64,000 nt of DNA, taken from contig CANMSA010000001.1 in NCBI GenBank assembly GCA_947500385.1, forward strand, positions 248,001-312,000, written 5' to 3'. This document shows, piece by piece, positions 1,323 to 50,227 of the stretch; position 1 is the stretch's first letter, and every line of letters starts with the position of its first letter. The notes under the pieces were generated by a model. It made no database searches and was not told the DNA's origin. It worked only from the letters and a program-made list of their open reading frames with translations. Source of the stretch: an uncultured Flavobacteriaceae bacterium (GTDB taxonomy: Bacteria > Bacteroidota > Bacteroidia > Flavobacteriales > Flavobacteriaceae). The translations under genes and the position numbers were made by a program.

Positions 1323-2486
1323 CTATTTACTCGCAAATAGCTTTACATCGCCATCGGTAACCTCTTTACCCCCCAAAATAATAAGTCTTTCAACAACATT
1401 CCGCAGTTCCCGTATGTTCCCGGTCCAATCATATCCCTGCAAAAGTTTGACCGCCTCGTCTGAGAACATCTTAGGCGCAATACCTTGTTCGGAGGTAATC
1501 TTTTTTGAAAAGTGTGCAATGAGTGCAGGAATATCGTTTCTTCGGTCATTCAGCGCCGGTACTTTAATCAAGATGACCGCCAGCCGATGGTACAGGTCTT
1601 CTCGAAACTTGCCATCGGCGATTTCTTTTTTTAAATCTTTATTGGTCGCGGCAATGACCCGAACGTTGACTTTGATATCTTTATCGGAACCGACCCTGGA
1701 AATTTTACTCTCCTGCAATGCGCGTAGCACCTTGGCCTGTGCCGACAGGCTCATATCGCCAATTTCATCAAGAAAAATAGTGCCCTTATTTGCCGCTTCG
1801 AACTTCCCCGCCCGGTCTTTGACCGCCGAGGTAAAAGCCCCTTTTACATGACCGAACAACTCACTCTCTATCAGCTCCGAGGGAATTGCGGCACAATTCA
1901 CTTCTATAAAGGGTGCACTGCTACGTGGACTTTTCTGATGCAGCCAATGAGCGACCAGTTCCTTCCCTGTGCCGTTTGAACCTGTAATAAGCACTCTGGC
2001 ATCTGTAGGGGCCACTTTTTCGATCATATCCTTGATTGCGGAAATCTCCTTGCTATCCCCGATCATCTCATAGTTCTTGCTAACCTTCTTTTTAAGAATT
2101 TTATTCTCTACTACCAGCTCTTTACGATCTAATGCATTTCGCACTGTGGTCAACAGACGGTTCAAATCGGGCGGCTTTGATATATAGTCAAAGGCACCTG
2201 CGCGCATAGTACCAACCGCCGTATCCAAATCGCCGTGTCCGGAAATCATGATAAAGGGAATTTCCGGTTTTATCTTCTTTGCGGCCTCAAGCACTTCCAC
2301 CCCATCCATTTTTGGCATTTTTATATCGCATAGCACCAAGTCGTAATCGTTGTTCTTAACGGTTTCCAACCCTTTTAAACCATCTTCGGCCTCCTCCACG
2401 GTATAGGAATCGTTCTCCTCGGAAAGTATCTTCACAAGTACCCGGCGAATGGCGGCTTCATCTTCTATCACTAAAATTCTTGACAT
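1323..2486 (-). CDS. Sigma-54-dependent response regulator lacking a DNA-binding domain
   Basis: NtrC-like activator of 387 residues counted from the start MSRILVIEDE at 2486. An upstream in-frame ATG at 2549 lies inside the preceding gene and is rejected. A receiver domain occupies residues 1-125 with phospho-acceptor Asp54 (LCDIKMPKMDG). An AAA+ domain (about 145-380) shows a Walker A (GSNGTGKE), a Walker B (IFLDEIGDM) and the sigma-54 contact loop written GAFTSA instead of the usual GAFTGA. The protein ends just after the AAA+ domain (VKLFASK), with no Fis-type helix-turn-helix, so it probably acts without its own specific DNA site. It lies 10 bases behind the DUF6268 gene in a tight five-gene minus-strand chain. 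No histidine kinase is adjacent. Confidence 0.9.
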   Translation of the reverse strand: MSRILVIEDEAAIRRVLVKILSEENDSYTVEEAEDGLKGLETVKNNDYDLVLCDIKMPKMDGVEVLEAAKKIKPEIPFIMISGHGDLDTAVGTMRAGAFDYISKPPDLNRLLTTVRNALDRKELVVENKILKKKVSKNYEMIGDSKEISAIKDMIEKVAPTDARVLITGSNGTGKELVAHWLHQKSPRSSAPFIEVNCAAIPSELIESELFGHVKGAFTSAVKDRAGKFEAANKGTIFLDEIGDMSLSAQAKVLRALQESKISRVGSDKDIKVNVRVIAATNKDLKKEIADGKFREDLYHRLAVILIKVPALNDRRNDIPALIAHFSKKITSEQGIAPKMFSDEAVKLLQGYDWTGNIRELRNVVERLIILGGKEVTDGDVKLFASK

Positions 2487-2496
2487 GCTGCTATTT

Positions 2497-3387
2497 TTAA
2501 AAAATTGATATTTTAAATCCCGTTCTAAGATAGAAATTTCCTTCGTCATTTAAAGTGAACGCCCGGTCTCGATTTCCATCTCTGATAAGCCCTTCCTGTT
2601 TCAACGAATATCCCGCAATGGTATAGAATGAAATCTGTTTTGCGATTTTATACTGGTACCCTACGGCCCCAACCAAGGCCGAGAGTGATATAGAGGTTCC
2701 AAAGTTATTATTTGGTAGCACAATATCGTCTTGCAGATTTACGAAATAGCCATCTAAAAACAGTACCGTTTGAAATACGTGTTTATCCTTTAAATAAAAT
2801 TTAAAATCTGTCCTCGGAATCCCAAGGGTATAGGACCAGTTTGGGTGAAATCGTTTGTAATAATTTATAAGGGGCAATGGGTACGGGAGCCCCGTCGCAC
2901 TATTATAACTTAACCCCAATATGAGGCGATAGGGTTTGTCTTCATCCTTTTTTTCCTTCCAAAACAGGACAGATCCATTGAGTCGAAAGTCATTGTTTTC
3001 GATACCCGCTTCAAAATTCGAAGCTAATCGCGGGGTTATGATACCCACAACCCGCCAGTCGGGATTCAATTTAAAAATATACCCAAGGTTTAAGTCAAGT
3101 ATATGAAGCCTCTCCAAGGTACTCACCTCAAAGGGCTGTTCAACATCGAACTCAAATTCATAACGATTGTACTCAAGACCCGCCACAAAATATTGATCCT
3201 CGACCAGTTTAATGGGCATATTAAACAATGCTCGGTACCTATTGGTACGTATACCGAACTTGTTCTCAGGTATCACGGTATATTCCAACCGGAGTAAGTC
3301 TGTTGTTTGGGAAAACATCAATTGACCTGCACAGAGAAAGATAAAAACGCCCAGCAGCCTAGACCAGCCATATTTTTGTTCACCCAT
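2497..3387 (-). CDS. DUF6268-type outer-membrane beta-barrel protein
   Basis: A 296-residue protein starting at MGEQKYGWSR (3387). A longer in-frame start at 3465 would overlap the MscS gene much more. A hydrophobic signal sequence (LLGVFIFLCAGQLMFSQ) is followed by alternating aromatic/polar strands typical of a beta-barrel, such as FNMPIKLVEDQYFVAGLEY and the C-terminal FYLRTGFKISIF ending in phenylalanine. It resembles the DUF6268 family of Bacteroidetes barrel proteins of unknown function. Its start overlaps the end of the MscS channel gene by 8 bases and it precedes the sigma-54 regulator by 10 bases, so co-transcription is likely. Confidence 0.75.
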   Translation of the reverse strand: MGEQKYGWSRLLGVFIFLCAGQLMFSQTTDLLRLEYTVIPENKFGIRTNRYRALFNMPIKLVEDQYFVAGLEYNRYEFEFDVEQPFEVSTLERLHILDLNLGYIFKLNPDWRVVGIITPRLASNFEAGIENNDFRLNGSVLFWKEKKDEDKPYRLILGLSYNSATGLPYPLPLINYYKRFHPNWSYTLGIPRTDFKFYLKDKHVFQTVLFLDGYFVNLQDDIVLPNNNFGTSISLSALVGAVGYQYKIAKQISFYTIAGYSLKQEGLIRDGNRDRAFTLNDEGNFYLRTGFKISIF

Positions 3388-16238: not shown

Positions 16239-16260
16239 TACCCCTAAAATTATAGGGGTA
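16239..16260. promoter_or_regulatory. 22-bp palindromic operator, strong copy, upstream of glnK-amtB
   Basis: Perfect inverted repeat TACCCC-N10-GGGGTA. The identical arms with the identical 10-base spacer occur again at 49081-49102 between the two glutamine synthetase genes. Its centre lies about 91 bases upstream of the inferred start point of the glnK transcript. Inferred to be the binding site of a dimeric nitrogen-responsive regulator, which is not identified in the window. Confidence 0.75.
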
Positions 16261-16291
16261 TAATTAAGATAAATATAAAAATCATCCATAT

Positions 16292-16313
16292 TACCCTAAA
16301 AAAGACAGGGTTA
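16292..16313. promoter_or_regulatory. Weak copy of the nitrogen operator, near -38 of glnK
   Basis: TACCCT-N10-GGGTTA has the same 22-base frame as the strong copy, with one mismatch in each arm, and starts 53 bases after it. The glutamine synthetase promoter shows the same pairing of a strong and a weak site 51 bases apart. Confidence 0.55.
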
Positions 16314-16326
16314 TGCAATTTTAAAA

Positions 16327-16334
16327 TATATTTA
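16327..16334 (+). promoter_or_regulatory. Predicted -7 box of the glnK-amtB promoter
   Basis: TATATTTA matches the Bacteroidetes -7 consensus TAnnTTTG at all but the last base and lies 35 bases after the start of the weak operator copy, with a leader of about 20 bases to the glnK ATG. No good -33 TTG is present, which fits activator dependence. Confidence 0.5.
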
Positions 16335-16359: not shown

Positions 16360-16698
16360 ATGAAAAAAATCGAGGCAATTATTAGAAAATCGAAGTTTGA
16401 TGATGTCAAAAAAGCGCTGCATCAAATTGAGGTGAACTTCTTCAGCTACTGGGATGTTACAGGAGTGGGAAACGAAAAACAAGGCCATGTGTATCGTGGT
16501 ATTTCGTATAGTACCACCGACATTCAGCGTAGGTATCTCTCCATTGTAGTTTCGGACGAGTTTTTAGAAAGAACTGTCAATGCTATTTTGGAAGCCGCTT
16601 ATACCGGAAACGTAGGGGATGGAAAAGTATTCGTTTCCGATATGATAGAAGCGTATCGAATACGTACAAAAGAAAACGGACAAGCGGGAATCAACTAA
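16360..16698 (+). CDS. glnK: P-II family nitrogen regulatory protein
   Basis: A 112-residue trimeric signal protein that senses 2-oxoglutarate and ATP/ADP and gates the ammonium channel. The start MKKIEAIIRKSKFDDVKKAL is typical. The T-loop keeps the tyrosine that corresponds to the uridylylation site (YRGISYST, Tyr50). The B-loop is altered but recognisable (AAYTGNVGDGKVFV), and the C-terminal RIRTKENGQAGIN is typical. The loop sequence diverges from E. coli GlnB/GlnK, as usual for Bacteroidetes. It is 27 bases ahead of amtB, forming the classic glnK-amtB operon, and is preceded by the palindromic operators at 16239 and 16292. Confidence 0.95.
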   Translation: MKKIEAIIRKSKFDDVKKALHQIEVNFFSYWDVTGVGNEKQGHVYRGISYSTTDIQRRYLSIVVSDEFLERTVNAILEAAYTGNVGDGKVFVSDMIEAYRIRTKENGQAGIN

Positions 16699-16725: not shown

Positions 16726-17958
16726 ATGGACGCAGGATTATTTACAGCTAACAATGTATGGATGATGGTATGTACCGCATTGGTATTCTTCATGCATACC
16801 GGTTTTGCATTTTTAGAAATCGGCTTGACCAGACAAAAAAATACAATTAACATCTTATTCAAGAACATCTTTATTATTACAGGAGGGCTCTTACTTTATT
16901 ATGCTTTCGGGTTCAATCTCATGTATCCTGGCTTTGAGGACGGTGATGCCGGTTTATTAAAGTTTGCTGGATTTGGCATCGGTGCCCCGGAAGGCGGTAT
17001 GACACCAGGATATGCCGACGGTGGTTACACTTGGTGGACCGACTTCCTTTTCCAAGGAATGTTCGCGGCCACTGCGGCAACCATTGTTTCGGGAGCGGTA
17101 GCGGAACGAATCAAGATCGGGGCCTTTATGATTTTCACCATTATTTATGTGGGGCTTGTCTATCCTATCGTAGGTGCTTGGAAATGGGGAGGTGGATTCC
17201 TTGATTCCTGGGGATTCTATGACTTTGCAGGGTCTACCTTAGTTCACTCCGTAGGCGGATGGGCAGCACTTGTGGCCATTGCATTGTTAGGCGCAAGAAT
17301 CGGGAAATTTGGAGAAGATGGCAAACCTAAAGCGATTCCCGGACACAGCATTCCCATGGCTACTGCAGGGGTATTGATTCTATGGTTAGGCTGGTTTGGT
17401 TTTAACGGCGGTTCGGTGCTCTCTGCCGACCCTGAGCTTACTTCTTTAGTACTTGTTACCACAAGTTTGGCAGCAGCAGCAGGTGGATTTGGTGCCTTTA
17501 TTCTATCTACCTTACTGTATAAAAACTTGGATTTAACCATGTTCTTAAATGGTATTCTAGGAGGTCTTGTAGGTATTACAGCAGGAGCGGACTTAATGTC
17601 GCCAAATGAAGCTGTAGTAATTGGCTTCATTGCTGGATTAATTATTGTTGGAGGTGTGGCCTTGATCGACAAGTTAAAATTGGACGATCCTGTAGGGGCC
17701 GTTACGGTTCACCTGATCTGTGGGATCTGGGGTACGCTTGCCGTTGGTATTTTTGGCAGTAAGGCCGGAATGGACCAGCTCCTCGTTCAACTTTATGGTG
17801 TGCTGATTATCGGCGCCTTTTGTATCATCAGTTCTGGGATTATCCTATTCGCCCTCAAAACAACAATGGGTCTGCGGGTTTCCAAAGAAGAAGAAATCGA
17901 AGGCTTGGATCTTCACGAACATGGTATGGACGCCTATCCAGACTTTATGAACGAATAA
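16726..17958 (+). CDS. amtB: Ammonium transporter AmtB
   Basis: A 410-residue inner-membrane ammonium channel with about 11 helices. Conserved features: the first helices (FFMHTGFAFLEIGLTRQKNT), the first pore histidine in GSTLVHSVGGWAAL, the family pattern GWFGFNGGS, and the second pore histidine in AVTVHLICGIWGTLAVG. The C-terminal tail (EEEIEGLDLHEHGMDAYPDF) carries the conserved Glu/His/Tyr pattern of the cytoplasmic region that contacts GlnK. It has no signal peptide. It is co-transcribed with glnK, and a terminator follows. Confidence 0.96.
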   Translation: MDAGLFTANNVWMMVCTALVFFMHTGFAFLEIGLTRQKNTINILFKNIFIITGGLLLYYAFGFNLMYPGFEDGDAGLLKFAGFGIGAPEGGMTPGYADGGYTWWTDFLFQGMFAATAATIVSGAVAERIKIGAFMIFTIIYVGLVYPIVGAWKWGGGFLDSWGFYDFAGSTLVHSVGGWAALVAIALLGARIGKFGEDGKPKAIPGHSIPMATAGVLILWLGWFGFNGGSVLSADPELTSLVLVTTSLAAAAGGFGAFILSTLLYKNLDLTMFLNGILGGLVGITAGADLMSPNEAVVIGFIAGLIIVGGVALIDKLKLDDPVGAVTVHLICGIWGTLAVGIFGSKAGMDQLLVQLYGVLIIGAFCIISSGIILFALKTTMGLRVSKEEEIEGLDLHEHGMDAYPDFMNE

Positions 17959-18082: not shown

Positions 18083-19225
18083 ATGAAAACGATTACAAAT
18101 ACAAAATTCGTAAAAAATATTTTTACGCTAGCCTTACTGTTTTTAGCTACAGCATTCACATTTGCCCAAGAAGAAGAAATGGAAGAGGAAGCAAAATCAA
18201 AATTCTCTTTTAGCGGCTCGGTAGATGCCTATTACAGAACCAATTTAGGCGGTTTGAACAAATTTATCCCGGATGCCAATGGTGATATTGCATTTTCCCC
18301 AGCGGTTCCCGGTACCTCTTTCGCCAATAGGCCAGGATTTGCCTTGGGAATGGTAAACCTAGTAGCGGGTTATGAAGGCGAAAAAGTAGGTTTTGTCGCC
18401 GATTTGGTTTTCGGCCCTAGAGGAGAGGAAGCGGTCTTTGGTTCGCCCTTCGGTTCTTCCAATATCGTAAATCAGTTATACGTGTATTGGAACGTAAGCG
18501 ACAAAGTAAAACTAACCCTGGGTAACTTCAATACCTTTTTAGGATACGAAGTGATTTCTCCTAGCGCCAACTTCAACTACAGCACCTCTTATCTGTTTTC
18601 CTATGGTCCCTTTTCGCACGCCGGTCTGAAGGCCGATTTTGACCTGGGAAGCGATTGGTCGGCCATGTTGGCCGTTATGAATGCTACCGATTTTACCGAT
18701 GTAAACATTTTTGGCAACTACAGTTTGGGGGCACAATTGGGATATTCGGGCCAATATTTAAATGTAGTATACGGTCCTCAAAGTTTTGGAGAAGCCTTGG
18801 ATGCCGACGGGAACCTTGTTGACACCGATGTAAAATCGTTATTTCAAATTGATTACACCGGCGGTTTTGATGTAACCGATTCATTCTTCTTAGGATTGAA
18901 TGCTTCTTATCAAGATACCGACGGTACCGGATTTACCGGAGTTGCCCTATATCCTCAACTCACAACTTCCGATCACTTTGCAATCGGATTACGTGGGGAG
19001 TATTTTGCCGAGACCGGTAGTTTTGGCGCCATCGGAGGTACCGATGCAGACGGGGATGCAAGTGTTATCGCGGTAACACTAACAGGAAGCGCCACTATCG
19101 GAGATCTAATGATCAAACCCGAACTAAGATTGGACAGCGCTTCTGAAGATGTTTTCCTAAACGGAGATCTAGAGGCGGAAGGCAGTCTGGCATCTTTTAT
19201 CCTAGCCGCTGTTTATTCCTTCTAA
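18083..19225 (+). CDS. Outer-membrane beta-barrel porin (OmpL/BBP2-like)
   Basis: A 380-residue outer-membrane protein. The signal peptide (TLALLFLATAFTFAQ) is followed by an acidic stretch (EEEMEEEAKSK), then a barrel of about 16 strands beginning FSFSGSVDAYYRTNLG. It ends with the canonical terminal phenylalanine (FILAAVYSF). The pattern resembles the 'putative beta-barrel porin-2' family. Its place directly behind glnK-amtB suggests it lets nitrogen compounds cross the outer membrane, but this is inference from position only. Confidence 0.8.
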   Translation: MKTITNTKFVKNIFTLALLFLATAFTFAQEEEMEEEAKSKFSFSGSVDAYYRTNLGGLNKFIPDANGDIAFSPAVPGTSFANRPGFALGMVNLVAGYEGEKVGFVADLVFGPRGEEAVFGSPFGSSNIVNQLYVYWNVSDKVKLTLGNFNTFLGYEVISPSANFNYSTSYLFSYGPFSHAGLKADFDLGSDWSAMLAVMNATDFTDVNIFGNYSLGAQLGYSGQYLNVVYGPQSFGEALDADGNLVDTDVKSLFQIDYTGGFDVTDSFFLGLNASYQDTDGTGFTGVALYPQLTTSDHFAIGLRGEYFAETGSFGAIGGTDADGDASVIAVTLTGSATIGDLMIKPELRLDSASEDVFLNGDLEAEGSLASFILAAVYSF

Positions 19226-26140: not shown

Positions 26141-26608
26141 CTATAGGGATGAGTCAGGCACTTTTTGGATGTGCCCATGTCGAATTACGTTCGATAGAAT
26201 AATATTCGTGCGGGTTTCGCCGTACTGAATAAGTTGGTCAATGAACTGCTCAAGATGAAATTGATCTTTCAATACTACCTCCATAACAATGTTTTCATTT
26301 CCGGTAATGCGGTAGCAATTGATAACCTCATCAAAAGTCTTTACCAATGATAGAAAAGGCTTGAGTTTCCCCATAAATGCCCGTAAGGTAATGATGGCCT
26401 TAAGCTGGTATCCTGTTAACGCGTGGGATACCATGGCTTTGTAACCTTCCAATATCCCCAAGTCCTCCATCTTCTTTACGCGCTCGGCAACTGCCGGAGG
26501 CGTAAGCCCTACTTGACGGCCAATATCGGCAAAAGAAATCCTTGCGTTTTTCTGCAGGCAATTTAGTATTCCCCAATTCAAATCATCAATCTTGCTATTC
26601 AAAGGCAT
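26141..26608 (-). CDS. Lrp/AsnC-family transcriptional regulator
   Basis: A 155-residue feast/famine regulator. The N-terminal winged helix-turn-helix (LNWGILNCLQKNARISFADI, LTPPAVAERVKKMEDLGILEGY) is followed by the RAM ligand-binding domain (QLKAIITLRAF, VINCYRITGNENIVMEVVL). It probably binds an amino acid and controls amino-acid metabolism. It is divergent from the four-helix-like gene at 26723, with an AT-rich 114-base spacer that likely holds both promoters, and close to the alanine symporter. Confidence 0.93.
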   Translation of the reverse strand: MPLNSKIDDLNWGILNCLQKNARISFADIGRQVGLTPPAVAERVKKMEDLGILEGYKAMVSHALTGYQLKAIITLRAFMGKLKPFLSLVKTFDEVINCYRITGNENIVMEVVLKDQFHLEQFIDQLIQYGETRTNIILSNVIRHGHIQKVPDSSL

Positions 26609-46816: not shown

Positions 46817-49003
46817 TTATTTGATAAATAGCAACTCCCGATACTTTGTCAATGGCCATAGGCGGTTGTCAACAAGATGCTCCAGGCTGTCACAATGTGT
46901 GCGGATCTTGTCGAAATAGGGTCTTACATTTTCACAATAGGCAATTGCTTTTTTATGGGTATCGGACAACGCATTGGCTTTCCTTCTGGTTTCGGTCATG
47001 GCATCGGTCATTTTCTTTACTGCCGCTATATGTTCCGCGACCTGTTCGATAATGGATAACTGCCCGTCTGAAAACTTGGAATGCGCCGCGCCATAAATAT
47101 CTTTCATGCCCATTACATTCCGTATCAAGGTATTTTGGTATTCGATCGTGGAGGGAATCACTTGATTGTAAACCAATTCGCCATATACTCTACTTTCTAT
47201 CTGAATATGCAGAATGTACGCTTCCAACTCAACTTCTTGCCGCGCCCGCACCTCCGTTTCGCTCATTACTTTCATAGACTTGAAAAGGTCAAGACTCTTC
47301 TTTCTAGTAAGTACTTCGAGCGCCTTCGGGGTCGTTTTGTTATTGCTCAGTTTCCTTCGTTTCGCCTCCTTTTCCCAAGCTTCGCTGTACCCATCGCCAT
47401 CAAAACGAATACGCTTCGAATTTTTTATATATTCTCGAAGAACGTTGAAGACCGCTTCATCTTTTTTCAAGCTCTTTTTATCGATCAGGTCGTCTACCTC
47501 TTTCTTGAACTCTTGCAATTGCTTCGCAACTATAGTATTCAAGACCGTCATGGGTTTTGCACAGTTCGTCTTGGAACCTACCCCCCTCATTTCGAACTTG
47601 TTTCCGGTAAAGGCAAAGGGAGAGGTTCGGTTGCGATCGGTATTATCGAGTAGAATCTCAGGGATTTTTCCCACTACATTCAGCTTGAGCTCAGTTTTTT
47701 CCTCTGGAGACAGCTTTCCTTGCGATACCCCTTCCAATTCATCGAGTACTTCGCTCAATTGCTTGCCAATAAAAATGGAAAGAATGGCAGGGGGAGCTTC
47801 ATTGGCCCCCAAACGATGGTCGTTGCTCGCAGATGCAATCGAAGACCGTAATAGTTCTTCATACGTATCCACTGCCTTGATGGTGTTTATAAAAAATGTG
47901 AGGAACTGCAGGTTCTTCATAGGGGTGGTACCGGGACTCAATAGATTTACACCCGTATCGGTAGATAGCGACCAATTATTGTGTTTGCCAGATCCATTGA
48001 TCCCTGCAAACGGCTTTTCATGAAAAAGCACCTTGAATTTATGGCGATCTGCAATTTTTTCCATCACATCCATCAGCAACAGATTGTGATCAACGGCCAG
48101 ATTTGCTTCTTCGAAAACAGGCGCCAATTCAAATTGGTTGGGGGCCACCTCATTATGTCTTGTTTTAACCGGAATCCCTAATTTGGTGCACTCCTTTTCC
48201 AAGTCTTTCATAAAACTAATGGCCCGTTGGGGAATCACTCCAAAATAATGATCGTCTAACTGTTGGCCTTTGGCCGCGGCACGGCCGATCAGGGTACGAC
48301 CGCACATCAAAATATCGGGACGTGAGTCGGCCAATGATTTATCGATCAAAAAGTATTCTTGTTCCCAACCCAAGGTCGCATTCACTTTGGAAACGTTTTT
48401 ATCGAAATATTTGGCAACGGCGGTGGCCGCATCATCGATCGAGTTCAAGGCGCGCAACAACGGCGCCTTGTTATCTAAGGCCTCCCCGGTATACGAAACA
48501 AAAATGGTGGGGATGCAAAGGGTGGTATCATATACAAAGGCCGGGGAAGTAGGGTCCCACGCCGTATAGCCCCTTGCTTCAAAAGTATTGCGGATCCCCC
48601 CACTGGGAAAACTGGAAGCGTCCGGTTCTTGTTGTACCAACTGCCCCCCGCCAAACTTCTCCAAGGCCTTCCCATCTGACAGCAGATCAAAAAAAGCATC
48701 GTGCTTTTCAGCAGTGGCGCCGGTTAAAGGTTGAAACCAATGGGTGTAATGGGTAGCCCCCATAGAAATGGCCCATGCTTTCATCGCTTCGGCCACTTGA
48801 TCGGCTATTTTCCGGTCTATTTTTGAACCGGAAAAAATCGCCCCTTTTATGCTTTCGAGCGCATCTTTGGTCAAGTGCTGAATCATTTTTTCCTCATTGA
48901 AAACCTTGGTTGCGAATAATTCTGAACGCCTCCTATCTTCCTTAATATCAATTTGTACCCGTTCCTGACTGTTAATAATGGCTGTAAAACGTTGTTTGGA
49001 CAT
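46817..49003 (-). CDS. glnN: Glutamine synthetase type III
   Basis: A 728-residue ATP-dependent ammonium-assimilating enzyme of the GSIII class (large subunit, dodecamer). Motifs include THWFQPLTGATAEKHDAFFD near the N-terminus, ATLGWEQEYFLID (metal/glutamate site), FHEKPFAGINGSGKHNNWSL (nucleotide/active site), RLGANEAPPAI and GNKFEMRGVGSKTNCAKPMT. It is expressed divergently from GSII. A predicted promoter lies at 49046-49079 on the minus strand, directly next to the TACCCC-N10-GGGGTA operator, whose centre sits near -52. Confidence 0.96.
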   Translation of the reverse strand: MSKQRFTAIINSQERVQIDIKEDRRRSELFATKVFNEEKMIQHLTKDALESIKGAIFSGSKIDRKIADQVAEAMKAWAISMGATHYTHWFQPLTGATAEKHDAFFDLLSDGKALEKFGGGQLVQQEPDASSFPSGGIRNTFEARGYTAWDPTSPAFVYDTTLCIPTIFVSYTGEALDNKAPLLRALNSIDDAATAVAKYFDKNVSKVNATLGWEQEYFLIDKSLADSRPDILMCGRTLIGRAAAKGQQLDDHYFGVIPQRAISFMKDLEKECTKLGIPVKTRHNEVAPNQFELAPVFEEANLAVDHNLLLMDVMEKIADRHKFKVLFHEKPFAGINGSGKHNNWSLSTDTGVNLLSPGTTPMKNLQFLTFFINTIKAVDTYEELLRSSIASASNDHRLGANEAPPAILSIFIGKQLSEVLDELEGVSQGKLSPEEKTELKLNVVGKIPEILLDNTDRNRTSPFAFTGNKFEMRGVGSKTNCAKPMTVLNTIVAKQLQEFKKEVDDLIDKKSLKKDEAVFNVLREYIKNSKRIRFDGDGYSEAWEKEAKRRKLSNNKTTPKALEVLTRKKSLDLFKSMKVMSETEVRARQEVELEAYILHIQIESRVYGELVYNQVIPSTIEYQNTLIRNVMGMKDIYGAAHSKFSDGQLSIIEQVAEHIAAVKKMTDAMTETRRKANALSDTHKKAIAYCENVRPYFDKIRTHCDSLEHLVDNRLWPLTKYRELLFIK

Positions 49004-49080: not shown

Positions 49081-49102
49081 TACCCCCAAAAAAATAGGGG
49101 TA
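49081..49102. promoter_or_regulatory. 22-bp palindromic operator between the two glutamine synthetase genes
   Basis: Perfect inverted repeat TACCCC-N10-GGGGTA, with the same arms and spacer length as the copy at 16239-16260 upstream of glnK-amtB. It can serve both divergent promoters: centred near -52 for GSIII and near -91 for GSII. Confidence 0.75.
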
Positions 49103-49131: not shown

Positions 49132-49153
49132 TACCCCCTAAATTTTGGGCATG
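49132..49153. promoter_or_regulatory. Degenerate copy of the nitrogen operator near -40 of GSII
   Basis: TACCCC-N10-GGCATG: the left half-site is perfect and the right half keeps only two of six bases. It starts 51 bases after the strong copy, matching the 53-base pairing at glnK-amtB, and lies over the -33 region of the GSII promoter. Confidence 0.5.
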
Positions 49154-49176
49154 ATTCATCAAAAAAATTATTTTTG
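49145..49176 (+). promoter_or_regulatory. Predicted promoter of glutamine synthetase II
   Basis: -33 TTG (49145-49147) and -7 TATTTTTG (49169-49176), an exact match to TAnnTTTG, separated by 21 bases. Inferred start near 49183, about 34 bases before the ATG. The -7 box is 37 bases after the start of the weak operator copy (35 at glnK). Confidence 0.7.
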
Positions 49177-49216: not shown

Positions 49217-50227
49217 ATGAGTAAATCAAAATTAGAGTACATCTGGTTGGACGGTTATAAACCTACTGCCAACCTACGAAGCAAAACCAAGGTTGAAGAA
49301 GATTTTAGCGGTAAATTGGAAGACTGCCCCATGTGGTCTTTTGATGGAAGTTCTACCAAACAAGCCGAAGGCGGTTCTTCCGATTGTTTGTTAAAACCTG
49401 TTGCCATTTATCCGGATCCTGCCAGGACCAATGGGTTTTTGGTAATGACAGAAGTTCTCAATGCCGATGGCACCCCACACGAATCAAATTCTAGAGCAAC
49501 CATTGATGATGCCGATGATGATTTCTGGTTTGGTTTCGAGCAGGAGTACTTTATCATGGACACTGCTACACAATTACCACTTGGTTTCCCAGTAGGTGGT
49601 TACCCAGGCCCACAGGGAATGTACTATTGCTCTGTCGGTGGAAAAAATACGCACGGTAGAGAATTTGTAGAAGAACATGCAGATCTTTGTATCGCTGCCG
49701 GCCTGAACTTCGAAGGTATCAACCAAGAAGTGGCAAGTGGCCAATGGGAGTTTCAATTATTCGCCAAAGGTGCCAAAAAAGCGGGTGATGAAATTTGGGT
49801 GGCCCGCTATCTTTTAGATCGTTTAACTGAAAGTTATGGTTGGTATATCGAATACCACCCAAAACCGGTAAAAGGAGACTGGAACGGTTCTGGAATGCAC
49901 GCAAACTTCTCCAACACCACCCTTAGAACCTGTGGTTCTAAAGAAGTATACGAAAAAATATGCGAGGCATTCCGCCCAGTGACTGCAGAACACATCGCTG
50001 TTTATGGTGAATTTAACGACCAACGTTTGACCGGTTTGCATGAAACCGCTTCCATACATGACTTCAGTTATGGTGTGTCTGACAGAGGTGCTTCTATACG
50101 TATTCCTATCATCACCGTTGAAAAAGGTTGGAAAGGATGGTTGGAAGACCGCAGACCAGCTTCGAATGGTGATCCATATAAAATTGCGGCGCGCATTGTG
50201 AAAACAGTGAAGACAGCTGACGTTTAA
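49217..50227 (+). CDS. Glutamine synthetase type II (eukaryote-like)
   Basis: A 336-residue enzyme that makes glutamine from glutamate, ammonia and ATP. GSII landmarks: LEYIWLDGYKPTANLRSKTK, CPMWSFDGSSTKQAEGGSSD (beta-grasp region), FGFEQEYFIMD (metal site), GGKNTHGREFVEEHADLCI, GDWNGSGMHANFSNTT (catalytic loop) and LTGLHETASIHDFSYGVSDRGASIRIP. The length is that of eukaryotic GSII, far shorter than the divergent GSIII. Having two unrelated GS types back to back suggests use under different ammonium levels. A terminator follows. Confidence 0.96.
   Translation: MSKSKLEYIWLDGYKPTANLRSKTKVEEDFSGKLEDCPMWSFDGSSTKQAEGGSSDCLLKPVAIYPDPARTNGFLVMTEVLNADGTPHESNSRATIDDADDDFWFGFEQEYFIMDTATQLPLGFPVGGYPGPQGMYYCSVGGKNTHGREFVEEHADLCIAAGLNFEGINQEVASGQWEFQLFAKGAKKAGDEIWVARYLLDRLTESYGWYIEYHPKPVKGDWNGSGMHANFSNTTLRTCGSKEVYEKICEAFRPVTAEHIAVYGEFNDQRLTGLHETASIHDFSYGVSDRGASIRIPIITVEKGWKGWLEDRRPASNGDPYKIAARIVKTVKTADV

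Follow-up and report, generated by a model that had tools for sequence, protein, structure and literature searches.

NtrC and sigma-54 control glnK-amtB and glutamine synthetase (GS) genes in proteobacteria, and in Bacillus the MerR-family regulators GlnR and TnrA control GS and glnK-amtB through palindromes with an AT core. In the tandem promoters of NtcA in cyanobacteria and of CRP in E. coli, the proximal site replaces the upstream hexamer and a second site lies about five helical turns further up; NtcA controls GS and ammonium uptake genes. Several MerR-family sites are palindromes of 19-21 bp with ACC...GGT arms, Lrp-type sites show GC-rich arms, an AT core, and regular spacing, and Lrp-type regulators occur near the alanine dehydrogenase gene (ald). 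For Prevotella ruminicola 23, one study reports that amtB, a gene for a putative transmembrane protein, glnK, gltBD, and glnN co-vary with ammonium by 26 to 69 fold, with text and figure legend disagreeing on the direction of the change (PMC5552732). Our full-text literature search, which left supplements, preprints, and subscription papers outside, found no description of a nitrogen regulator in Flavobacteriaceae and no operator of the form described below; a sequence-only reading of this DNA had known of none in Bacteroidetes.

The window, that is, the whole stretch of 64,000 nucleotides analysed here, comes from a source genome of 6.03 Mb in 123 contigs and carries two nitrogen-assimilation loci with the following features (positions are those of the window).

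16239..16260, unstranded: predicted distal operator of glnK-amtB, a perfect TACCCC-N10-GGGGTA centred at about -89.5 and kept in relatives
16292..16313, unstranded: predicted proximal operator of glnK-amtB, TACCCTAAAAAAGACAGGGTTA, centred at about -36.5, over the -33 region
16327..16334, plus strand: predicted sigma-A -7 box of glnK, TATATTTA, fitting the TAnnTTTG consensus with the final G absent
16360..16698, plus strand: glnK, P-II protein (Pfam PF00543)
16726..17958, plus strand: amtB, ammonium transporter (PF00909; TIGR00836 above cut-off)
18083..19225, plus strand: outer-membrane porin, BBP2/OmpL-like (PF07642), downstream of amtB
46817..49003, minus strand: glutamine synthetase type III (GSIII, GlnN; PF12437), divergent from GSII
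49081..49102, unstranded: predicted distal operator of GSII, TACCCCCAAAAAAATAGGGGTA, centred at -89.5, the nearer site as seen from GSIII
49132..49153, unstranded: predicted proximal operator of GSII, centred at -38.5, with only the left half good (TACCCC) and the right half degenerate in relatives
49169..49176, plus strand: predicted sigma-A -7 box of GSII, TATTTTTG, a perfect TAnnTTTG match
49217..50227, plus strand: glutamine synthetase type II (GSII, GlnII; NF041605 at E=1.3e-117, under the curated cut-off; PF00120 and PF03951)

Both perfect 22-bp palindromes, at 16239-16260 and 49081-49102, were present where the sequence-only reading had placed them, and they are the only two perfect copies of TACCCC-N10-GGGGTA in the source genome, in which the pattern written backward has no perfect copy. 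The weaker downstream copies that it had described were also found, 53 bp on with two mismatches at 16292-16313 and 51 bp on with three mismatches at 49132-49153, and the -7 box begins 35 (glnK) and 37 (GS) bases after the start of the weak copy, as it had counted. The centres, earlier put at -91 and -39, were recomputed to -89.5 and -36.5 for glnK and to -89.5 and -38.5 for GS with the -7 box set at -12 to -5. All start sites given here are predictions from the position of this box, following the TAnnTTTG consensus at -12 to -5 that a Flavobacterium psychrophilum study gives (PMC9723704). The copy at 49132-49153 really amounts to one good half-site, and the repeat unit is better described as ACCC-N11/12-GGGT than as the strict 22-mer.

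Frequency against chance separated the lone palindrome from the pair. Allowing up to three mismatches, the window held 24 matches to the 22-mer against 19.9 expected, and with up to one mismatch the source genome held 18 places, compared with 15 when the pattern was written backward; 12 of the 13 one-mismatch places that were read lay inside open reading frames. The loose 22-mer is thus not enriched, and the 22-mer is special by its place and its partner, not by its number. Across a draw of 199 Flavobacteriaceae genomes (G numbers label genomes and L numbers loci), a hand tally gave 38 places for the strict 22-mer and 21 for its backward form, and at least 20 of the 38 places adjoin nitrogen genes. 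The pair was searched as ACCC-N11/12-GGGT-N30/36-ACCC-NN-WWWW, with the same pattern backward as control, and was found in 116 of the 199 genomes versus 44 of 199 for the control; counted on both strands, the matches numbered 203 versus 69, the control being tallied by hand. The tandem pair, rather than the lone 22-mer, is the strong signal.

The sequence-only reading had named a lack of conservation before orthologous genes in relatives as the outcome that would speak against it, and the opposite was observed. For glnK we took the best 30 loci (L045-L074) from matches in 142 of the 199 genomes, and for GS, matched in 186 of the 199 genomes with 135 strong GSII matches, 28 of the best 30 loci (L075-L104, leaving out L091 and L100). 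Pairs were scored on 10 letters per site at spacings of 50-55 bp, with score, threshold, and spacing range fixed after the first promoters had been seen, and each promoter was compared at the same settings with 40 dinucleotide-preserving shuffles made by our own routine. The pair outscored all 40 shuffles at 26/30 glnK and 22/28 GS promoters of relatives, and within these promoters the spacing was 52-54 bp in all 26 glnK cases and 50-54 bp in all 22 GS cases. Among the shuffle-beating promoters with a -7 box, the distal centre lay between -89.5 and -91.5 in 22 of 25 for glnK and between -88.5 and -90.5 in 18 of 19 for GS, and the proximal centre between -36.5 and -39.5 in 23 of 25 and 16 of 19, respectively. 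The half-site ACCC was 97-100% conserved at each base in 106 half-sites preselected by at least 7 of 8 matching ACCC/GGGT letters, and the arm spacer was N11 or N12 in 45 of 55 sites.

The TAnnTTTG -7 box was found in 47 of the 58 glnK and GS promoters, and in these the TTG expected at -33 was mostly absent from the 17-27 nt upstream of the box (23/25 glnK and 17/22 GS, together 40/47). At the GS proximal site the left half was kept (mean 4.32/5), and the half beside the -7 box was decayed (2.89/5). The general notion that the proximal site is the weaker one did not hold throughout, as in several glnK promoters this site equals or surpasses the distal one. The spacer between the two sites (16261-16291 at glnK in the window) showed a gene-specific tendency of its own, with TAAAAAT or TAATTTT in 26/28 glnK spacers and 7/28 GS spacers, and TTAATAA or TTGATAA in 15/28 GS spacers versus 1/28 glnK spacers, and these motifs are possibly a third element between both sites.

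We then turned to the genes that carry the pair, reading in both directions 55 loci selected by the forward pattern only, 30 of them in genomes chosen by us and 25 new and tool-drawn. Directly upstream of nitrogen genes were 45 of the 55 (26/30 and 19/25 by source), and the other 10 lay inside open reading frames (9) or at the edge of one (1), which goes against the possibility, raised in the sequence-only reading itself, that the palindrome would be equally frequent before unrelated genes. All of the pair loci read that lie clearly outside open reading frames were at nitrogen-assimilation genes. The 45 comprised glnK (18), gltB/porin (10), porin (1), GSII/GSIII (5), GSIII alone (4), ald (5), and amtB (2), with one glnK promoter, that of G104, counted twice (L211 and L237). 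The claim of a nitrogen-gene regulon was therefore supported and widened, because gltB, the porin, and alanine dehydrogenase also belong to it. This two-sided reading supersedes an earlier one-sided sorting by downstream gene, which left 38 of 102 matches unassigned, many of them since palindromic pairs match both strands. In G043, a relative with a nearly complete genome of 1.69 Mb that was read almost fully, eight pairs scored at least 16. The three at glnK, GSIII/GSII, and amtB are intergenic, and the other five fall within open reading frames. A score of 15 brought in two more intergenic pairs, without a nitrogen gene.

The pair is not universal within the family, being absent before glnK or GS in G150, G183, G187, G020, G064, G065, G055, G136, G149, and G180. 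Several pair-less genomes are reduced and a few are larger, and in several of them GSII lies beside a purM-like gene (named by eye) and has no divergent GSIII gene. Outside this draw, named genomes with higher GlnK identity, mostly titled Flavobacteriaceae, had an intergenic pair within 3 kb upstream of glnK in 24 of 41 cases, among which L431 looks spurious and the upstream DNA measured 608 bp for L434 and less than 3 kb for L425 and L436. The remaining 17 of these 41 Flavobacteria-type glnK loci fell below the threshold, some with one strong site. No convincing pair was seen at any of 39 Bacteroidales glnK loci, as of the five that reached the threshold four lay inside genes and one was GC-rich and unconvincing. 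The GlnK of the source genome has its nearest named relatives among genomes titled Flavobacteriaceae, with Maribacter antarcticus closest at 92%.

Several features of the individual loci extend this picture. The single pair between the divergent GSIII and GSII genes probably also serves GSIII, and the pair was present in four loci at GSIII promoters without GSII. Homologues of the porin in other genomes have their own operator pair, often common to a divergent gltB gene, and this predicted operator was shared by a porin homologue and gltB in 10 of the 55 loci read. This sharing suggests that ammonium or small nitrogen compounds may cross the outer membrane through the porin. Upstream of gltB in the source genome there is just a single palindrome, at a distance of roughly 300 bp, and it may be a terminator. 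Besides the pairs at glnK and GS, that genome has only one more exact pair, at ald on contig C7; with a further site 52 bp upstream of it, the ald promoter (C7:231200-232500; L150) contains three phased sites, at intervals of 52 and 53 bp. An Lrp/AsnC gene (LrpB, C7:235389-235853) lies about 3 kb from ald, and the ald-side pair and LrpB are 2-3.5 kb apart also in G026, G152, G097, G176, and G164.

Other regulatory genes lie near these loci. The window encodes a response regulator (1323-2549, minus strand) with a sigma-54 AAA domain like that of NtrC/NtrX, for which Pfam gave no match to a DNA-binding domain at E<=0.001, and in G043 a homologue 69% identical to it shares a contig with glnK. A second Lrp/AsnC gene (26141-26608, minus strand) stands between glnK and GS in the window and is often on the same contig as both in relatives. 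In G043, an Rrf2-type regulator gene at L318:17388-18224 precedes a co-oriented gene for a distant paralogue of P-II (37% to GlnK), and the two adjoin apparent sulfate-reduction genes (named by eye), making a sulfur-side P-II switch a possible role for them.

At the level of DNA sequence, then, tandem ACCC-N11/12-GGGT sites 50-54 bp apart lie at a near-fixed distance from the predicted -7 box, and this layout stands upstream of glnK-amtB, GSII/GSIII, gltB/porin, amtB, and ald. We consider it quite probable that the palindromes are operators of a nitrogen-assimilation regulon recurring across Flavobacteriaceae, with the dimeric activator reading included. The dimeric regulator proposed in the sequence-only reading gains support from conservation and gene specificity, and we infer the protein binding itself. 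Since the spacing is close to five helical turns, both sites would lie on one face of the helix, and a dimeric DNA-binding protein would occupy them together. Nitrogen shortage would lead to activation through a class II-like contact made at the proximal site, and the distal dimer would add cooperativity. The protein on the proximal site would replace the -33 contact, given that the TTG is mostly absent, that the proximal site lies there, and that the GS half beside the -7 box decays.

Activation at low nitrogen, which we regard as somewhat probable, is favoured over repression, which we rate as possible and short of probable. In the latter case, a repressor on the proximal site would block the polymerase at plentiful nitrogen, helped by the distal dimer through a loop or wrapping. 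The proximal centre, mostly at -36.5 to -39.5, indeed overlaps the polymerase footprint, the five-turn spacing suits looping or wrapping, and the TAAAAAT/TAATTTT motifs so frequent in glnK spacers (26/28, against 7/28 in GS) could ease bending. However, the absence of the -33 TTG in 40 of the 47 promoters with a -7 box makes the basal promoter look weak, and in GS it is the half closest to the -7 box that is less well conserved; both points argue against repression.

As to the protein that would act as activator at these operators, those proteins that could be tested decisively do not fit, which leaves either one of the family's core transcription factors or a protein missed by our domain screen. 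That screen searched G043 with domain consensus lines, which can miss unusual DNA-binding proteins; it yielded about 25 factors, each compared with six or seven further pair-bearing genomes, and about thirteen are still possible. The factors common to the tested pair-bearing genomes mostly also occur in genomes that lack the pair at these promoters, so that their distribution does not point to any single one. Possible candidates are MerR L312, PadR, TetR, AraC, MarR L302, OxyR, Fur, and MerR L250, and further ones are the membrane GerE protein L238 (37% identical in G166), a LytTR protein of unsure orthology, two PhoB-type regulators, and the EBP L280. By eye, MarR L302 has a different palindrome upstream. 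Disfavoured were Rrf2 L318 and MarR L248, neither of them represented among all 7 matches of G046 at E<=1e-8; DtxR L240, not represented among all 11 matches of G166 at E<=1e-12; the response regulator L277 and XRE L295, missing from the best 6 of 9 matches listed for G166; and HxlR L263, missing from the matches listed for G118, G113, G134, and G155. For a factor missing from the listed matches, there was none better than about 4e-14. None of the 22 G043 factor genes examined for autoregulation had a site scoring above 8/10 near its start.

Among particular proteins, a small MerR-type protein without effector domain (G043 L312:6115-6441, 108 aa), which would work like TnrA/GlnR of Bacillus, is an unlikely regulator. 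It occurs in 7/7 pair-bearing genomes compared, G043 included and the source genome outside the set. It has a MerR_1 domain, its PDB matches place the GlnR and TnrA structures after CarH and among the weaker ones (E 5e-4 to 4e-3), and the ACC...GGT arms of a 19-21 bp palindrome resemble several MerR-family sites. The same protein is also present in eight pair-less genomes (G002, G180, G150, G183, G020, G064, G065, and G136), however, no link to nitrogen genes was seen for it, and the TnrA/GlnR box TGTNA-N7-TNACA occurred in only 5 of the 58 promoters.

Distinctly less credible is an Lrp/AsnC protein, either that of the window (26141-26608) or LrpB near ald (C7:235389-235853), whose appeal lies in the resemblance of GC-rich arms around an AT core and regular spacing to Lrp-type sites, in the proximity of LrpB to the ald operator, and in the presence of LrpB in 131 of the 149 genomes that have glnK or GSII versus 22 of the 50 that have neither (Fisher p=2e-9, with kinship ignored and lists typed by hand). 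The window protein, attractive by position, was rejected since its orthologue is absent from operator-bearing genomes, with paralogue-level matches only in the pair-bearing G043, G008, G099, and G025, and no orthologue in G014 despite a perfect palindrome before GS. LrpB, for all its correlation with glnK/GSII, was disfavoured by its absence from seven pair-bearing genomes, having no match at E<=1e-30 in G118, G113, G134, and G155 (99-100% complete) or in G088, G062, and G051 (84-88% complete). One of these, G113 (one contig, 99%), lacks both Lrp orthologues and still has the pair at GS.

An NtcA-like member of the CRP/FNR family is very improbable. Sites near -38 and -90, five turns apart, recall tandem CRP or NtcA promoters, yet no orthologue was common to the tested pair-bearing genomes, and the family was disfavoured: the sole PF13545 matches of the pair-bearing G043 and G166 belong to different groups, the pair-bearing G052 (90% complete) has none, and G139 (86%) has a weak match only. 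CRP boxes were found in 0, FNR boxes in 1, and NtcA boxes in 3 of the 58 promoters, none of which carried sigma-54 -24/-12 elements (TGGC-N7/8-TTGC) or NtrC-like palindromes (GCAC-N5-9-GTGC). That the palindromes are RNA hairpins or terminators and not DNA operators is hardly believable, for although a CCCC/GGGG palindrome can form a stem and, by eye, the strict 22-mer that precedes a MarR gene in G056 resembles a terminator, the pairs lie upstream of the predicted transcription start, the right arm of the proximal GS copy is degenerate in relatives, and single-strand folds were no better than shuffles (z -0.85, 0.02, -0.74, and 0.34; DNA energies).

The operator definition is precise enough to fish the regulator out of a cell extract, and it allows regulon prediction in new genomes. 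It also gives a way to test nitrogen sensing through P-II, itself inside the regulon, and ties the BBP2/OmpL-like beta-barrel porin to nitrogen uptake. We hold in even balance the fuller proposition that the nitrogen regulator of Flavobacteriaceae is none of NtrC, NtcA, GlnR/TnrA, AmtR, and NrpR, acts on a rigid two-site operator at sigma-A promoters, and has under its control ammonium uptake, the two glutamine synthetases, glutamate synthase, alanine dehydrogenase, and a companion porin of the outer membrane.

In its general kind, a tandem palindromic operator and a nitrogen regulon, this system is familiar. What sets it apart is its sequence, its sigma-A layout, and the misfit of the known regulators tested. 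Prevotella ruminicola 23 offers a related gene set responding jointly to ammonium, but the available passages of that study name no regulator or operator (PMC5552732), and the 39 Bacteroidales glnK loci gave no convincing pair. Our loci share GC-rich arms, an AT core, several phased sites, and an Lrp-type gene near ald with Lrp/AsnC systems, whereas the operator is present without either of the orthologues tested. The targets glnK-amtB and GS are those of NtrC/sigma-54, whereas 47 of the 58 promoters here carry a sigma-A -7 box, with no -24/-12 elements and no NtrC-like sites. Palindromic AT-core sites at GS and glnK-amtB are likewise a feature of GlnR/TnrA, from which our loci differ in operator sequence and spacing, with a TnrA-like box in 5/58 promoters. 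NtcA/CRP promoters differ in their half-site, which is ACCC here and not GTA or TGTGA, and no CRP orthologue was common to the pair-bearing genomes tested; nevertheless, they share with our loci a proximal site over the upstream hexamer and a second site about five turns up, and NtcA, too, acts on GS and ammonium-uptake genes.
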